Part shown: one piece after another, positions 6,526 through 12,193 of the stretch | Numbering within the stretch: the first letter of the stretch is position 1 | Layout of the letters: each line of letters starts with the position of its first letter | Origin: Turicibacter sp. | Lineage (GTDB): Bacteria; Bacillota_I; Bacilli_A; MOL361; Turicibacteraceae | Assembly (NCBI GenBank): GCA_009787345.1 | Contig: WRGF01000217.1 | Location: forward strand, 1-53,076 | Direction: 5' to 3' | DNA: 53,076 nt | The notes under the pieces: model-generated | What the model was told of the DNA's origin: nothing | The model's input: only the letters and a program-made list of their open reading frames with translations | Databases searched by the model: none | Position numbers and translations under genes: made by a program

Positions 6526-6583
6526 TTTATCGCTGAAAAAATTAATTTATCGCTCGATTTGTCGCTTGAAAATTGAGCGATAT
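6526..6583 (+). repeat. TTATCGCT repeat array upstream of fic (candidate operator)
   Basis: TTTATCGCT occurs at 6526-6534 and 6546-6554, a variant TTGTCGCT at 6558-6565, and an inverted copy AGCGATA at 6576-6582. The 23 bases 6546-6568 recur in inverted orientation at 7375-7397 inside the fic gene with a single mismatch. The inverted copy overlaps the -35 box of the fic promoter. This suggests an autoregulatory binding site; the binding protein is not identified. Confidence 0.65.
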
Positions 6584-6601
6584 TTTTTTGTATGGTATAA
6601 T
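6573..6601 (+). promoter_or_regulatory. Sigma-A type promoter of fic
   Basis: TTGAGC (6573-6578), a 17-base spacer and a perfect TATAAT (6596-6601). The start codon of fic lies 28 bases downstream of the -10 box. The -35 overlaps one copy of the AGCGATA repeat. Confidence 0.75.
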
Positions 6602-6629
6602 GGAATGAGAAAAACAAGGGAGGAAACTG

Positions 6630-7622
6630 ATGAAGCCGGTATTCTCAATGAACAATGCGATGTTAAATAAAATGGTTGAAATTTCCAAAGCTATTGGGCA
6701 TTTGGAGTTTCAAGTCGAGAGAAACCTGAAATTACGGAAAGAAAATCGAATCAAGTCGATTCATTCGTCGTTGGCGATTGAAAACAATAGTTTAAGTGTT
6801 GAGCAAATAACCGACATTATTGATGGTAAGCGAGTGCTAGGAAATCCCAAGGAAATCCGGGAGGTTAAGAATGCCTATGAAGCTTATGAAGAGATTTTGT
6901 CCCTGAACCCATACAAGCAGAAGGATTTTCTTAAAGCCCATGGACTCATGACGCAAGAAGTCGTGAATGAGTCAGGCCGATATCGTCAAAAAGATGTGGG
7001 TATCTTTGATAGCAATGGTAATGTGGTTCATCTGGGAGCCAGACCGCAATTTTTAGAGGTTTTGATGGATGAGTTGTTTGAATGGGGGGCGACTGATGAT
7101 ACTCCAGAAATCATCAAGAGTTGTGTCTTTCATTATGAAATAGAAACCATTCACCCATTTGCAGATGGAAATGGTAGGATGGGACGCTTATGGCAGACCG
7201 TGATATTGGCAAACTGGAATCCCATTTTTGCGTGGATACCCATTGAAACGATTATTTATGAGCATCAAGCCGCTTACTACAATGTTCTAGCCCAAGCAGA
7301 TAAGCTAAATGACTCCACTGTTTTTATTGAATTTATGTTGAATGTCATTCTTGAAACGCTTATCGCTTATAAAACAAGCGATAAATCGAGCGATAAAAAT
7401 GAAATCGAATTCCCCGATGAAATGACGGGAGTTGAAACGCAAGTTTATCTATTACTCAAGAAATATTTGGCTGACCATGAGAGCATCAATACCACAGTTG
7501 CAACGAAACTCATCGGCAAATCAGCCCCCACAGTCCGAAAATACTTATCGAGATTGGTTACACTTGGATTGCTTGAAGCACACGGTAGCAACAAAAACCG
7601 AACTTACACGTTAAAACACTAA
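6630..7622 (+). CDS. Fic family protein (AMPylase/deAMPylase type) with C-terminal winged helix
   Basis: Fic enzymes transfer AMP or related groups from a nucleotide to hydroxyls of target proteins. The 330-residue protein has an N-terminal helix with the inhibitory motif SSLAIEN (residues 46-52, pattern S/T-xxx-E-N), so it is likely self-inhibited. The core motif HPFADGNGRMGR begins at H175 and is intact (catalytic His, acidic and phosphate-binding residues). After a short polar linker rich in SDK repeats (about 245-257), the last 65 residues look like a winged helix (TVATKLIGKSAPTVRKYLSRLVTLGLL). AGGGAGGA precedes the ATG. The gene is monocistronic, with its own promoter and a terminator at 7621-7650. 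The linker-coding DNA repeats the promoter array in inverted form. Target unknown; no antitoxin partner gene is seen. Confidence 0.92.
   Translation: MKPVFSMNNAMLNKMVEISKAIGHLEFQVERNLKLRKENRIKSIHSSLAIENNSLSVEQITDIIDGKRVLGNPKEIREVKNAYEAYEEILSLNPYKQKDFLKAHGLMTQEVVNESGRYRQKDVGIFDSNGNVVHLGARPQFLEVLMDELFEWGATDDTPEIIKSCVFHYEIETIHPFADGNGRMGRLWQTVILANWNPIFAWIPIETIIYEHQAAYYNVLAQADKLNDSTVFIEFMLNVILETLIAYKTSDKSSDKNEIEFPDEMTGVETQVYLLLKKYLADHESINTTVATKLIGKSAPTVRKYLSRLVTLGLLEAHGSNKNRTYTLKH
7360..7397 (+). repeat. Intragenic inverted repeat in the fic linker
   Basis: TTATCGCTT (7360-7368) and AAGCGATAA (7376-7384) form a perfect 9-bp hairpin with a 7-base loop. A further AGCGATAAA follows at 7389-7397. Bases 7375-7397 are the reverse complement of 6546-6568 upstream of the gene with one mismatch. 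The stretch encodes part of the linker (TSDKSSDK). Confidence 0.75.
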
Positions 7623-7650
7623 AGCCCTTGCCACCTTCAAGGGCTTTTCC
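7621..7650 (+). terminator. Terminator after fic
   Basis: AAGCCCTTG (7622-7630) pairs with CAAGGGCTT (7638-7646), followed by TT. A 27-base stretch beginning inside this terminator (7634-7660) is identical to 9157-9183 after the next operon. Confidence 0.75.
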
Positions 7651-7676
7651 CATGCCTAAAGAACTCGAAAAAACGA

Positions 7677-7745
7677 GCGTTTATGTCATTTTTTGCGACG
7701 CTCATGTAAAAGAGGGTATCGCAATCCCTCTCCATCAGGTAAAAT
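7677..7745 (+). promoter_or_regulatory. LytTR-type (AgrA) regulated promoter P1
   Basis: Direct repeats GCGTTTAT (7677) and ACGCTCAT (7698), 21 bp apart. A weak -35 TATCGC (7717), a 17-base spacer and -10 TAAAAT (7740-7745) follow. The second repeat starts 42 bp before the -10, as in the three other promoters of the island. This is the expected layout for a LytTR activator bound to one face of the DNA. It serves the gene at 7804. Confidence 0.75.
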
Positions 7746-7803
7746 AAAAATTGCCAGAATATTGAGGGAATTTTTGGTAGATTATACTTGGAGGTAAAAG
7801 GTT

Positions 7804-8694
7804 ATGAAATTTACAAAGATTAGAAAACGATTTAACCAATCCTTTTTCATGGGCTTGGTAACGATGACCATCGTTTCACCCCTTATTGGAATTCCAAATG
7901 GAGTAGTTCAAGCGAATCCGGTTAATTTACAAGGAATCAGCGAGGGTATGCAAGAGGTTATTGAAATAAAAGCGGACTATGATGTTCACACAAAAATGGA
8001 TTTTTTCTCCAATGGGGCTATTCTAAACGATAGCTATTTTGAATCTATTTTGATTCACAATGAAATGGGATATGAAGTTGAGATAAGCCTTCCATTTTAC
8101 TTATTGGAGGAAATTTCTAAGACGACATTGTTAAATATTGCGAATGAAAGTAATGAAAAAATTACCATTTATGGTATTGAACTAATTGAACACGAAGATG
8201 AAGAAGTTTGGATTGAGAAAAAAATAGATGATTCCCCAATAGGGAGAATTTTAGGAGTCGGCACTTTGACGCCGAATCCAGCGATTTACCGAACTACGGT
8301 AAATCGTCGCCCGGCGAGCTTTAGTAATACTTTTGGAACTAGTCAACGTGTTTTAACGGTTGCTAGGCAAATGAGTACAACCTTATCCAGCACATGGACA
8401 AGAACAACGACTGTTTCTCTTAATACAGGGACAGGAAATCAGTCTCCTTGGCAACGGAGTGGAGGACTGGCTCATAGTGTTACGGCTACAAGGACCCGCA
8501 CGCATGTATTTAATGGTCCATCGGAAAATTCACATTATCGTTCTACTGATTTCAGACAACAATTTGAATATGAGCCTATTGAATGGACACAGACACGTTC
8601 TCAAACAACAGGTATAGTCACTAACACCCAAACACGAAGTGGGACTGGTGTCAGACCACATTCTATTATCTGGTATAGTGTTGGGATTCGATGA
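7804..8694 (+). CDS. Secreted protein of unknown family, agr-island unit 1
   Basis: A 296-residue protein with a signal peptide (basic KFTKIRKRF, hydrophobic core to about residue 32, likely cleavage after VVQA). The N-terminal half is acidic and mixed in composition. The C-terminal half (from about 165) is very rich in Thr, Ser and Arg with alternating patterns such as TTTVSLNTGTGNQ, suggestive of beta structure. There is no cysteine. It ends SIIWYSVGIR, comparable to the RWYRR end of the secreted protein at 12397. GGAGG precedes the ATG. It lies behind a LytTR promoter and directly before a small membrane protein. I do not recognise the family; a toxin-like or surface-active role is conceivable but unproven. 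More AT-rich than the core genes. Confidence 0.7.
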   Translation: MKFTKIRKRFNQSFFMGLVTMTIVSPLIGIPNGVVQANPVNLQGISEGMQEVIEIKADYDVHTKMDFFSNGAILNDSYFESILIHNEMGYEVEISLPFYLLEEISKTTLLNIANESNEKITIYGIELIEHEDEEVWIEKKIDDSPIGRILGVGTLTPNPAIYRTTVNRRPASFSNTFGTSQRVLTVARQMSTTLSSTWTRTTTVSLNTGTGNQSPWQRSGGLAHSVTATRTRTHVFNGPSENSHYRSTDFRQQFEYEPIEWTQTRSQTTGIVTNTQTRSGTGVRPHSIIWYSVGIR

Positions 8695-8698
8695 AAAT

Positions 8699-9124
8699 AT
8701 GCCTAAAACGCTAGTAGGTATTTTCCTACATGCACTAATTCTATTACTTGGATTTTTTCGTTGCGGAAATAAAGTTACCTTAGAGTTGAATGTAGACTAT
8801 CAATTTGTAGGTATTGTTTTACCAGAAAGTTATTATTCCCAACAAAGTGTATCTTTTCCTATAATTCAAAAACAAATTTTGAAACATAATTTAGAGGTAC
8901 TGACTGAGAAACAGGGTTGGAAACGTGTGGACTTAGGATCAATAGCTAGTCAGGAAAAAGGGTGGATATCTTTTCGTAATAATCTGTTTGATATTCGTTT
9001 GATTGCGGTGGGACCGTCCGAGGAAAGTTCTGCTAACAGCCGTATTTTTCACTTATATTACCAAGAAAAAGAGGGAAATGTTCTCTATATATTAATCAAT
9101 TATGATGTGTTAGTTGTAAATTAA
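8699..9124 (+). CDS. Small membrane-anchored protein, partner of the 7804 product
   Basis: A 141-residue protein with one N-terminal hydrophobic segment (VGIFLHALILLLGFF) and an extracytoplasmic domain of about 115 residues. Start ATG 8699 lies 4 bases after the stop of the upstream gene and has only a weak ribosome site, so translation is probably coupled. The frame is open further upstream (ATG 8639) but that overlaps the previous gene. A cysteine follows the hydrophobic core (FFRCGN), but it is not a good lipobox. The start MPK, the size and the position mirror the 13065 gene after the second secreted protein. A protective (immunity) role is inference from arrangement only. Confidence 0.6.
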   Translation: MPKTLVGIFLHALILLLGFFRCGNKVTLELNVDYQFVGIVLPESYYSQQSVSFPIIQKQILKHNLEVLTEKQGWKRVDLGSIASQEKGWISFRNNLFDIRLIAVGPSEESSANSRIFHLYYQEKEGNVLYILINYDVLVVN

Positions 9125-9136
9125 CCTTTGATTCAT

Positions 9137-9173
9137 AAAAGCCCTTGTAGGAGAAACCTTCAAGGGCTTTTCC
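9137..9173 (+). terminator. Terminator after the first secreted-protein operon
   Basis: AAAAGCCCTTG (9137-9147) pairs with CAAGGGCTTTT (9161-9171). Its right arm and the next bases duplicate 7634-7660. Confidence 0.8.
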
Positions 9174-9223
9174 CATGCCTAAAATGGATAGCCCTTCGCT
9201 ACTATTCCACAAAAAAAAATCCA

Positions 9224-9292
9224 ACGTTCATGCAGCTTTATCACACGTTCACGCAAAACAGGGTATCGCAAACTCCTCCCATCAGGTGAAAT
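9224..9292 (+). promoter_or_regulatory. LytTR-type promoter P2 of the agr operon
   Basis: Direct repeats ACGTTCAT (9224) and ACGTTCAC (9245), 21 bp apart; -35 TATCGC (9264), 17-base spacer, -10 TGAAAT (9287-9292). The second repeat starts 42 bp before the -10. It drives agrBDCA, so activation by AgrA would give the positive feedback known from agr systems. Leader from the predicted start to agrB is about 120 bases. Confidence 0.78.
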
Positions 9293-9419
9293 AGAAATTC
9301 CTAGAATATTGGGGAATGTTTTCGGTAAATGTAAAAATATGTTGTAATTGGATCATCTTTGTTGTAACCCCTCACACTATTCTGGTACAATGGGAAGTAT
9401 CAGGGAGGGAGTGAGGCAT

Positions 9420-10036
9420 TTGTTGTCAATCGAAACAACAGCCCTGGGTCTGGCTGAAAAAATAGCGACCCACAAAGAACTGGACAGGAAAGCATTCCTC
9501 AAAATTAAACTGGGAATCGAAGTGTTCCTCATCAACCTAACGAAAATGACGATTATCTACGGCGTGGCTTTCGGGCTCGGCATCCTCAGGGAAACGTTCA
9601 TCCTAAATCTTGCGTACTTTTTGCTAAGAAGACATTCATACGGACTTCATGCTAAAGCAAGCCTAAATTGCACAATCGTCAGTTTATTGGTTTTCGTAGG
9701 ATTGCCGTACTTTCTTCGTTCATTTGAAGCGGATTATCTAATGACTGTGATAGGGTTCATTCCCGTATTCGTGGGGCTTTACTTATACGCTCCCGCCGAC
9801 ACGGAAAAAAATCCCTTACTGGGGGAAAAACGAGGAAAAAATTAAGGTCAAAAAGCTTAAAGTGGGGGCTTGCCTTAATGGTGGTAGCCCTGGTGCAACC
9901 GAGTTCCGACATCAGGTTTTTAATCTTGCTAGGGGCAGTCGTCCAAATTATCATGATATTACCAATCACATACAAAATTTTAAAGAGGGGGTACAATAAC
10001 TATGAAAACTATCAAAAACTTACTAACCAAACTTAA
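9420..10036 (+). CDS. agrB: AgrB, peptide-processing membrane protease (interrupted by a -1 frameshift)
   Basis: AgrB cleaves and cyclises the AgrD precursor in the membrane. The zero frame from TTG 9420 (GGGAGGG 10 bases upstream; TTG 9423 and GTG 9411 are alternatives) ends at a stop at 9843-9845 after 141 residues. Catalytic His and Cys are present in HAKASLNC, preceded by the usual LRRHSYG, and the family motif YAPADTEKNP is intact. The missing C-terminus is encoded in the -1 frame. From the A6 run at 9836-9841 it reads KKLRSKSLKWG, then two hydrophobic segments (ALMVVALV, FLILLGAVVQIIMILPI), to a stop at 10034-10036. The joined protein would be about 205 residues, close to family length, and would overlap agrD. 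The shift could be sequencing error, mutation, phase variation or programmed slippage (A AAA AAT). Confidence 0.85.
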
Positions 10037-10163
10037 CGGGGGAACCTTCTTGGCACTGGCAACCGCCTTTTTATGGCTAGGGGAACAAGCTATCGGGGCG
10101 CATTGCCAGGGATTTATTTTTGAGTCAGAGATTCCAAAGGAATTACTAGGGGAAGAAAACTAA
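10002..10163 (+). CDS. agrD: AgrD, autoinducing peptide precursor
   Basis: A 53-residue peptide placed between agrB and agrC. It has the three parts of an AgrD: an amphipathic N-terminus (MKTIKNLLTKLNGG, then FLALATAFLWLG), a core with a single cysteine at residue 35 (GAHCQGFIF), and an acidic tail with the conserved PKELL (46-50). By analogy with staphylococcal AgrD, AgrB would cut after the hydrophobic core and form a thiolactone through Cys35. A ring CQGFIF with an N-terminal tail is the likely pheromone; exact ends cannot be read from sequence. AGAGGGGG precedes the ATG. The stop lies 1 base before agrC. Confidence 0.88.
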   Translation: MKTIKNLLTKLNGGTFLALATAFLWLGEQAIGAHCQGFIFESEIPKELLGEEN

Positions 10164-10164
10164 G

Positions 10165-11448
10165 ATGCTGGATTTATGGATGCATTTTAATCAGTTTAGT
10201 TCGATGATTATTACGGTGGCTATTCTATCCAGTGAGAAACTTAAAAAGAGTTTTCTCGCTGGATGGATAATTATTATTACATTCGTTTCGTGGTTTGCAT
10301 ACGAAAACATCAGCCTTAACATGTTACCTGTGCTCGTTTTGCTTCAAGTGGGCATTATTTTATGGGGAACTGAAAAGAAAATTATGAATATTTGCTTGCT
10401 CATATTCTCGACCTTATTGGCAGTAGTGACCAGTTATCTAAGTCAGTTACTATCGCCCACCAGAAATTTTCATATTGTTACGCTCTCGCATACAATGTTG
10501 ATGCTTTTTTTTGCGTACCTTTTTAAAATTTTCCTTAAAGAAAAGCAACTACACGCGATGCTTGAATCTCCCCATTCCAAAATTATCCTAGGATTGCTCT
10601 CTGCTACATTTCTAATTTTCTATGCGGACATTATCATCGGCTCTTACTTGGGGTTTTCGACAGAGGTCCTTTTTGGCAGAGGGATGATTTTAGCCTGTTA
10701 TCTCATCGTCATCTTCATTATCTTCAAGGCATTCACCCAAAGTGTAAAAAAGGAAAAGGATTTAGAGGGCAAGGTTTTGGAAAGTATGCTAAAAGAACAA
10801 TCTTTTGAAATTTTAAAGGAGCAGATTCTCTCGGCAATGAAAACTCACGAACAGACTTTACGAATCCATCATGATATGAAAAATATGTTGCTTGGCTTTG
10901 AAGGCTATTTAAAATCAGGGGATTCCAAGGGAATGAAGGACTATTATTATAGCTCGGTTCTTCCGCAACACGAAAAAATCGACAAGGAGGAACTTTATTT
11001 GCTTCCTCTTGTCCGTCTTGAAAACATTGCAATCCAAGGAATGCTACGGGGGAAATTGGCGGATGCTATGAACTTAGGTGTCGAAGTATCTTTGGAACTG
11101 GAAGATGAAATTCAGGAAATTAGCATGAATCCCATTGATTTAATTCGTGTTTTGGGGATTTTATTGGATAATGCCATTGAAGCGGCTTTAGAAACAAACG
11201 CTCCCGTCATAAAAATGGCTTTCATTAAGGAGGAAAATAGACTTCTGATTGTCGTGCAAAACAACTTTAAAGGGGAAATTCCCTTCGATGAAATGTACCG
11301 ACATGGATTTTCCACGAAAGGGGAAGATAGAGGGATTGGTTTAAGCAACTTAGCAGAAATTTTAGAAGAATCCGAAGGCGTTCAAGTGTACCACGAAGTG
11401 GAAGGGGATTTGTTCGTCCAACATCTAGAGATTATAGGGGGAGATTAA
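10165..11448 (+). CDS. agrC: AgrC-type sensor histidine kinase
   Basis: Receptor kinase for the AgrD-derived peptide. The 427-residue protein has six to seven N-terminal hydrophobic segments (about residues 13-190) forming the sensor, as in AgrC and other HPK10 kinases. A coiled stretch leads to the H-box LRIHHDMKNML (His235/236), and the GHKL ATPase domain follows with N-box LLDNAIEAAL and G-box GIGLSNLAEIL. AGGGGAAG precedes ATG 10165. agrD ends 1 base upstream and agrA starts 1 base downstream, so the genes form one operon with tight coupling. Ligand specificity is inferred from the adjacent agrD. Confidence 0.95.
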   Translation: MLDLWMHFNQFSSMIITVAILSSEKLKKSFLAGWIIIITFVSWFAYENISLNMLPVLVLLQVGIILWGTEKKIMNICLLIFSTLLAVVTSYLSQLLSPTRNFHIVTLSHTMLMLFFAYLFKIFLKEKQLHAMLESPHSKIILGLLSATFLIFYADIIIGSYLGFSTEVLFGRGMILACYLIVIFIIFKAFTQSVKKEKDLEGKVLESMLKEQSFEILKEQILSAMKTHEQTLRIHHDMKNMLLGFEGYLKSGDSKGMKDYYYSSVLPQHEKIDKEELYLLPLVRLENIAIQGMLRGKLADAMNLGVEVSLELEDEIQEISMNPIDLIRVLGILLDNAIEAALETNAPVIKMAFIKEENRLLIVVQNNFKGEIPFDEMYRHGFSTKGEDRGIGLSNLAEILEESEGVQVYHEVEGDLFVQHLEIIGGD

Positions 11449-11449
11449 A

Positions 11450-12193
11450 ATGTCGGAGATAATCATTTGCGAAGATAGCGAAAAAATAAGAAACCGCCTA
11501 CAAATTAGCGTGGAAAAGCACCTTCAGGAGAACAATTACATCATGTCACTGGGCTTAGTGACCCCAAAGCCTCTGGAGGTTTTAGAACATATTGGAAAAA
11601 ACGATGCTAAAAGAATTTATTTTTTGGATGTGGAACTCGGGGCGGACATAAATGGAATTGAACTGGCGAAAAAAATCAGGGAAGTTGATTCAGAAGGAGT
11701 CATCATTTTTGTGACTGCCTACTCCAAATACGCTTCTCTCACCTACAAGTACAAATTAAACGTATGGGACTACATTGAAAAAGAAACCATCGCCTACACA
11801 GCAAAAAAAGTCTGCGAGTGCTTGGATACCCTTCATGAAAAAACTTTGCAGAAGAGTGATGAAGCCGCGAAAATTTTGACTGTCATTTCTAGAAACCGTG
11901 AATATCACCTTAAACACGAGGACATCCTTTACTTTACTTATGATTCGGAATATCGGGAAGTTACGGTTCATCTCCGAAGCCGGCAAAAACTCGGCTTTAA
12001 CGGAAAAATGGATGACCTCGAAAAAATCGGGAGCAATTTTTACCGTACCAATCGAGCCACCATTGTTAATAAAGATCATATCAAGTCCATAGATGGGCGA
12101 AAAGGGCTCTTGCACCTCCTCGGGGATGAGAAGTGCGATATTTCCGTAAGGAAGTTAAAGGTCCTTCGGGATGAAAGGAAAGCAATGGAGTAG
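11450..12193 (+). CDS. agrA: AgrA-type response regulator (receiver + LytTR DNA-binding domain)
   Basis: Response regulator paired with AgrC. Receiver domain residues 1-125: acidic pair in IICEDSEK, phospho-acceptor Asp60 (YFLDVELG), switch threonine in VTAYSKY and lysine near 107. The LytTR domain spans residues 140-247 (ISRNREYHLKHEDILYFTYD, FYRTNRATIVNKDHI). LytTR proteins bind pairs of short direct repeats about two helical turns apart. Exactly such pairs precede agrB and three nearby operons, which makes AgrA their probable activator. AGGGGGAG precedes the ATG. The 3' end of the gene forms part of the terminator stem. Confidence 0.95.
   Translation: MSEIIICEDSEKIRNRLQISVEKHLQENNYIMSLGLVTPKPLEVLEHIGKNDAKRIYFLDVELGADINGIELAKKIREVDSEGVIIFVTAYSKYASLTYKYKLNVWDYIEKETIAYTAKKVCECLDTLHEKTLQKSDEAAKILTVISRNREYHLKHEDILYFTYDSEYREVTVHLRSRQKLGFNGKMDDLEKIGSNFYRTNRATIVNKDHIKSIDGRKGLLHLLGDEKCDISVRKLKVLRDERKAME

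Follow-up and report, generated by a model that had tools for sequence, protein, structure and literature searches.

The fic gene of the window (the whole stretch of 53,076 nucleotides that was analysed) carries one set of short repeats around its predicted promoter and a second set inside the gene, where the DNA encodes the linker that joins the catalytic and C-terminal domains of its product (Table 1). We regard it as reasonably probable that these repeats form an autoregulatory operator array, presumably bound by the winged helix of the Fic protein itself, together with a second, intragenic copy that codes for the linker. At the level of sequence, the comparisons establish the repeats, the promoter footprint, the matching of promoter and linker in three variants, and the constraint on linker DNA across seven families.

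Table 1. Features of the fic locus, in coordinates of the window
Feature	Position	Strand	Remarks
Promoter array unit 1, TTTATCGCT	6526-6534	+	Exact match; block kept in L035, flanks differ
Promoter array unit 2, TTTATCGCTCGA	6546-6557	+	TTTATCGCTCG kept in L035
Promoter array unit 3, TTTGTCGCTTGA	6558-6569	+	One mismatch to TTATCGCT; L035: TTTATCGCTTGA
Predicted fic promoter	6573-6601	+	From a consensus scan; TATAATGG block kept in L035
Promoter array unit 4, inverted (GAGCGATA)	6575-6582	-	Overlaps the predicted -35
fic gene	6630-7622	+	ORF; Fic/AMPylase domain, linker, C-terminal winged-helix-like domain
Inner unit TTATCGCTT	7360-7368	+	Codes for L-I-A-Y; first hairpin arm; L035: TTATTGCTT
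Inner unit AAGCGATAA	7376-7384	-	Codes for S250-D-K; second hairpin arm; lost in L035
Inner unit GAGCGATAAA	7388-7397	-	Codes for S254-D-K; CGAGCGATAAA kept in L035
C-terminal winged-helix-like domain	7428-7613	+	Residues 267-328; presumed reader of the arrays

The product contains a Fic domain (PF02661, E 5.6e-19), the catalytic motif HPFx(D/E)GN(G/K)R, present as HPFADGNGRMGR in the translation, and the class II inhibitory motif (S/T)xxxE(G/N), present as SSLAIEN at residues 46-52, where S47, E51 and the N that follows fit the pattern. In the AlphaFold model, the C-terminal domain is built of helices at residues 267-282, 288-295 and 299-311 and strands at 315-318 and 325-328, which is the HHH-EE topology of a winged helix, with block pLDDT values of about 70-89; linker residues 252-258, just ahead of this domain, have pLDDT values below 50. 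A Pfam helix-turn-helix was seen in the C-terminal domain only below the cut-off (a weak HTH_DeoR, E 0.0087). The best fold matches are Fic structures, with 4rgl first and 7xux in the top ten, and the matches to 4rgl and 3eqx span the full length of the product. The 7xux entry, the structure of a FIC-domain protein released in December 2022, is presumably CccR; its sequence identity to the window protein is low (19% in the fold alignment). By motif and fold criteria, the product is predicted to be a class II Fic AMPylase with a C-terminal winged helix.

Downstream of fic, bases 7633-7660 are identical to bases 9156-9183 (28 nt), and the adjoining 108 nt (7668-7775 and 9215-9322) agree at 73%. 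This repeat, whose copies lie 1.5 kb apart, brackets two genes without a Pfam match (7804-8694 and 8639-9124) and looks like a duplication or an insertion scar. Further on (9348-12193), an AgrB-like gene (PF04647), a GHKL histidine kinase and a LytTR response regulator stand in a row as an agr-type quorum-sensing locus.

The original prediction started from a 23-base reverse complement with one mismatch, and bases 6546-6568 (TTTATCGCTCGATTTGTCGCTTG) indeed agree at 22 of 23 positions with the reverse complement of bases 7375-7397 (TTTATCGCTCGATTTATCGCTTG). A repeat finder extends the arms to 37 nt (6546-6582 and 7361-7397, 81% complementary), which makes them the longest inverted pair across the entire window. 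The statement that such a pair is far beyond chance in 53 kb holds as well: the upstream 230 nt and the fic gene reach an inverted score of 20 at best, and 1,000 dinucleotide shuffles gave at most 14. Shorter units do surround both copies. Five of the seven occurrences of TTATCGCT in the 53 kb fall in the promoter and linker clusters; 1.3 occurrences would be expected, and none of 100 shuffles reached seven. A dispersed genomic repeat family was rejected as their source: TTTATCGCTC has just four occurrences in the 3.1-Mb genome, and this fic locus accounts for two of them. The outer set is a promoter array of three TTTRTCGCT units, of which the third starts 12 bp after the second, and one inverted unit; as had been proposed, this inverted unit (6575-6582) overlaps the predicted -35 (TTGAGC, 6573-6578), which is followed after a 17-nt spacer by a TATAAT -10 (6596-6601) preceded by TG. 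Within the gene, the perfect 9-bp hairpin is present (7360-7368 and 7376-7384), and the inner set (TTATCGCTT at 7360, AAGCGATAA at 7376 and GAGCGATAAA at 7388) codes for LIAYKTSDKSSDK, including the predicted SDK linker, T-SDK-S-SDK at residues 249-256, ahead of the C-terminal domain.

The outer set recurs in relatives. In the closest one found, Bacillaceae Marseille-Q3522 (L035), whose Fic protein is 82% identical, the four units and TATAATGG, including the -10, are kept as blocks and the intervening DNA differs. Three tandem TTTATCGCTCAA units lie upstream of the fic promoter in G048 (Fic 53% identical), a Neisseria (L036) has a 12-bp array of AAGCGATAA/AAGCGGTAT with units AAGCGATAAAATAAGCGGTATAAC, and in further Fic relatives of the class, units of 11-12 bp with other sequences stand three in tandem at the equivalent place (AACATACAAGAA, TTTAAGCAAGA or TATATCGCTACT). 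Overall, two or three tandem 11-12-bp repeats are found in the same place in Fic relatives and in SLFN_AlbA_2 genes that have a C-terminal winged helix. Promoter arrays are also found without a clear linker copy (L185, L186, L188 and L189), and among plasmid and phage relatives, L250 has an SDE-type promoter without one. A search of 395 genomes of the class for strict 12-bp-spaced AGCGATAA doublets found real instances only in G048 and the window, the other four lying in ordinary coding sequence; a doublet at the junction of two genes in Streptococcus merionis (L149) was taken as chance. These comparisons support, in kind, the view that the outer set behaves as a conserved promoter operator-like element. 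Two further arrangements were noted: in an Oceanobacillus (L037), Fic ends just before the linker position, yet GGTTACTAGTAACCTGGTAACTT stands upstream of the gene, and in genes of another Fic type (L198, L199, L201 and L202), AAGATAATAAGCAAGATAATAAGCAAGTTA direct repeats overlap the -10 and continue downstream of it rather than lying at the -35.

The linker can match the variant of its own promoter (AGCGATAA, AGCGATGA or ACCGATAT), in either orientation. The match is inverted in the window (score 20) and in L035 (score 13). Oscillospiraceae-type relatives have the promoter motif GATGAAATGAGCGATG and an SDEMSD linker coded by AGCGATGAAATGAGCGATG; in one of these SDE-type genes (L075), promoter and linker agree in direct orientation over 20 bases (AGCGATGAAATGAGCGATG, score 20), and direct matches of 12-15 are found in L070, L061, L077, L083 and L087. 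In a Saccharibacteria MAG (L050), the promoter has TACCGATATAATTACCGATATA, units of the ACCGATATA type code for the linker TDIFPDIDTDK, and the match is direct (score 16). Of 28 genes in which the best match between the upstream region and the gene's own coding sequence scores at least 12, 13 have that match in the linker (6.4% expected); the corresponding p value (4e-9) overstates independence because these genes represent about three independent lineages.

A universal promoter-linker pair was rejected, since no upstream array was found for operon-embedded fic genes: the linker array is kept in those with SDK linkers (Streptococcus, Actinobacillus, Psychrobacter) and in those of Bacteroidales. 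The operon-embedded SDK linkers nevertheless match the non-coding fic promoter arrays of other genes in the class (z=13.5 over other segments of the same genes), and the linker of an Actinobacillus (L042) agrees at 33 of 35 bases with the promoter of G048, which belongs to another genus. SDE linkers likewise match other SDE promoters (z=7.3). For TEQV/TDQV and HQV linkers, no clear match was found to the promoter arrays of Fic-like_C relatives. Among the plasmid and phage relatives, a Fusobacterium gene (L245) has a further TDK linker coded by ACCGATAAA. An orphan Fic linker fragment (an ACCGATA array, KITDIFTDINTDK) occurs in a Lentimicrobiaceae MAG (L177:6942-6972), downstream of a second Fic-like ORF and away from any complete linker-bearing gene, and the fic gene of an Elusimicrobiota (L065, near 2200-2260) is frameshifted where the linker array begins.

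SNQK linkers are coded by (AGTAACCAGAAA)n and KVTQ linkers by (AAGGTTACTCAA)n, that is, by one GGTTACT motif on opposite strands, with unrelated peptides, which argues for recognition of double-stranded DNA. In the genomes with these linkers, the strict doublet is found only in Fic linkers and in one other linker (TEQV, L215), in a protein whose C-terminal part resembles AlbA_2-type proteins. A search of the 395 class genomes for GGTTACT-N5-GGTTACT gave eight matches, six of them in non-coding arrays of three tandem 12-bp units (CCATACAAGTAA or CACCTAAGTAAC; L234, L235 and L238, also L233, L236 and L237). The arrays of L234, L235 and L238 lie directly upstream of genes that start with an AlbA_2-type domain; the L235 gene, the only one of the three checked against Pfam, has SLFN_AlbA_2, HATPase_c_4 and Fic-like_C domains. 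The remaining arrays of the six adjoin apparent gene remnants or replaced genes, and those beside remnants look as if they were on mobile elements. Since the search pattern was taken from coding linkers, the matches in non-coding promoters amount to a prediction; scores of SNQK linkers against these GGTTACT promoters are circular, the pattern having come from the linkers.

A precedent for autoregulation by such a protein is CccR from Yersinia pseudotuberculosis. This class II Fic-wHTH protein represses its own promoter, with 10-bp boxes near the -35/-10, on the evidence of footprinting, ITC and a lacZ fusion (PMC9755527). The fic gene of the window shares with CccR a Fic catalytic domain joined to a C-terminal winged helix and a repeat operator-like array at its own -35/-10. 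It differs in the layout of the sites: CccR has two inverted 10-bp boxes 26 bp apart, whereas the fic promoter of the window has mainly direct 12-bp repeats and one inverted unit, and lacks inverted half-sites with a wide spacer. Proteins of the Fic-like_C / SLFN_AlbA_2 + HATPase_c_4 type (PF21247, PF04326 and PF13749) resemble the window protein in having a catalytic part and a C-terminal winged helix, with three tandem 12-bp units upstream of the -35, but their catalytic domains differ from Fic; no published operator for these proteins was found in the literature searched. CbFic2 from Coxiella burnetii, a Fic protein with a winged helix, binds DNA with nanomolar affinity (PMC10628234). Random DNA was used in that work, which discusses DNA binding in relation to enzyme activity and identifies no operator (PMC10628234).

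On the precedent of CccR, the arrays are probably read by the Fic protein's own winged helix, and another protein could take its place. An array-like set of units could serve any DNA-binding protein, and the fic-only gene of L037, which lacks the winged helix, has a repeat-bearing promoter. A different regulator or a nucleoid protein is nonetheless rather unlikely: the motif changes with the Fic lineage (AGCGATAA, AGCGATGA, ACCGATAT and ACAAG types), TTTATCGCTC is nearly confined to fic in its genome, and the same layout of the arrays is found in SLFN_AlbA_2 genes whose products have a winged helix at the C-terminus.

Codon usage indicates that the linker repeats are constrained as DNA. Four-residue-repeat Fic linkers (SDK, SDE, TDI, SNQK, KVTQ, HDK and HQV) are 12-nt arrays at the DNA level. 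Constraint was measured as the share of conserved residues with an identical codon, in the linker and in its flanks for the same gene pairs. This fraction is 0.90 in TDI, 0.92 in SNQK, 0.91 in H/QDK, 0.72 in KVTQ, 0.78 in SDK and 0.75 in both SDE and HQV linkers, the last despite the lack of a clear promoter-array match. In the flanks of the seven families, it is 0.38-0.50 (catalytic domain) and 0.39-0.53 (wHTH). The linker thus exceeds its flanks in each of the seven families with repeats, whereas two control groups whose linkers lack repeats show no clear excess (0.46 against flanks of 0.44-0.48, and 0.62 against 0.54-0.55). Independently, a sliding scan places the linker first in conservation among the segments of the gene for TDI, NQK and DK. 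With one vote per gene, Ser is AGC in 6/6 genes against 16% and AGT in 9/9 against 16%, Thr is ACC in 11/11 against 31% and ACT in 10/10 against 25%, and Ile is ATA in 11/11 against 18%. As both flanks are unremarkable, the constraint is not explained by a recent transfer of the C-terminal module as a whole. It appears to hold generally for Fic linkers with four-residue repeats, in relatives that span several bacterial phyla, a generality that the original prediction had missed.

These values bear on a further alternative, namely that the linker copy is a functionless relic or duplication, the codon agreement reflecting a recent origin or gene conversion of the repeats. Such a history would suit the partly decayed inner array of L035 and the genes that have a promoter array without a linker copy (L185, L186, L188 and L189). 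It is unlikely, slightly more so than a different regulator, given that codon agreement in the linker (0.72-0.92) exceeds that in both flanking domains (0.38-0.53) and that constraint is likewise seen in families where no upstream array was found from which to copy.

An RNA-level element, whether hairpin, terminator or mRNA processing site, is improbable. The inner 9-bp hairpin has a predicted energy of -11.9 kcal/mol (z -2.9), and promoter units 3-4 form a terminator-like hairpin with a T run, but in L035 the inner hairpin is weaker and rearranged and the T run is not kept, so that both the linker hairpin and the outer terminator were rejected as candidates. Moreover, hairpins of this kind do not arise from arrays of direct repeats, the motif occurs on either strand, and the promoter copies lie at or upstream of the -35.

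The original prediction offered either two operators bound together in looping autorepression or an inversion switch of the intervening 0.8 kb. Its core stands, in that the outer set probably serves the promoter as an operator that relatives have kept, and the inner set repeats this DNA element; the inversion switch and obligatory looping are not supported. An invertible promoter or gene switch would suit the inverted copies of the window and L035, but it is highly improbable: the repeats are short and imperfect, the copies are direct in the SDE (Oscillospiraceae-type) lineage and in the Saccharibacteria MAG, L035 has the same orientation as the window, the eight neighbouring proteins tested included no recombinase, and inversion would part the promoter from its gene. 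Of the readings considered, control by the winged helix of the protein itself has the best support. Looping is not required, since operon-embedded genes carry the linker copy only and other genes the promoter copy only. Homologues with the same linker and no upstream repeats, which had been named as counting against the proposal, are these operon-embedded genes; they speak against looping, yet constraint on their linker DNA persists. A better fit is a roadblock to transcription or an intragenic operator that acts independently.

Intragenic auxiliary operators are known from lac O2 in lacZ and from the internal operator of gal. The window resembles them in having the same motif at the promoter and, some hundred bases downstream, inside the coding region. 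It differs in that the presumed internal operator coincides with an inter-domain linker and has a period of four codons, and in that lineages lacking an upstream copy show the linker constraint as well. The open literature searched contained no earlier account of operators coded within a linker. The view that the repeats act at the peptide level alone, as a flexible or oligomerising linker whose likeness to the promoter is coincidental, would account for the frequency of four-residue repeats in these low-confidence, probably flexible linkers, but it is very improbable, as the constraint on synonymous positions already contradicts it and one coding linker shares 33 of 35 bases with a non-coding promoter array from another genus.

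In the preferred explanation, autoregulation by the Fic protein, the outer set would be the operator array of the fic promoter, with 12-bp-type units around the -35, and the C-terminal winged helix would bind it and repress its own gene. The inner set would be a second copy of the array within the gene, doubling as the code for the linker between the catalytic and DNA-binding domains, and would probably serve as an intragenic operator at which the same protein may reduce or stop transcription across the gene. The peptide repeat of four residues would then be largely a by-product of the DNA array. Several observations weigh against this explanation: the arrays are unlike the widely spaced palindrome of CccR, for many repeat-linker genes no upstream array was found, identity between promoter and linker is limited to about three lineages, and the TEQV/TDQV and HQV linkers have no clear match to known promoter arrays. 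In addition, another regulator could read the arrays, and the inner one is partly decayed in L035, where the inner copy is predicted to be dispensable and thus not essential everywhere.

A wider proposal, to which we give an even chance of being right, is that in proteins combining an enzyme with a winged helix (Fic, perhaps also SLFN_AlbA_2), four-residue linkers are primarily in-frame operator arrays. Their 12-bp period would equal four codons, the variant and strand of the motif would set the peptide (SDK, SDE, TDI, SNQK, KVTQ, HDK or HQV), and in operon-embedded genes the linker would be the only autoregulatory site. If true, the repetitive linkers of many Fic proteins would be DNA sites rather than peptide features, and linker DNA would directly predict the operator for a large set of AMPylases yet to be characterised, many of them encoded within restriction-modification loci. 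Dual coding in bacteria would gain an unusually clear example, one that could be tested by synonymous recoding.
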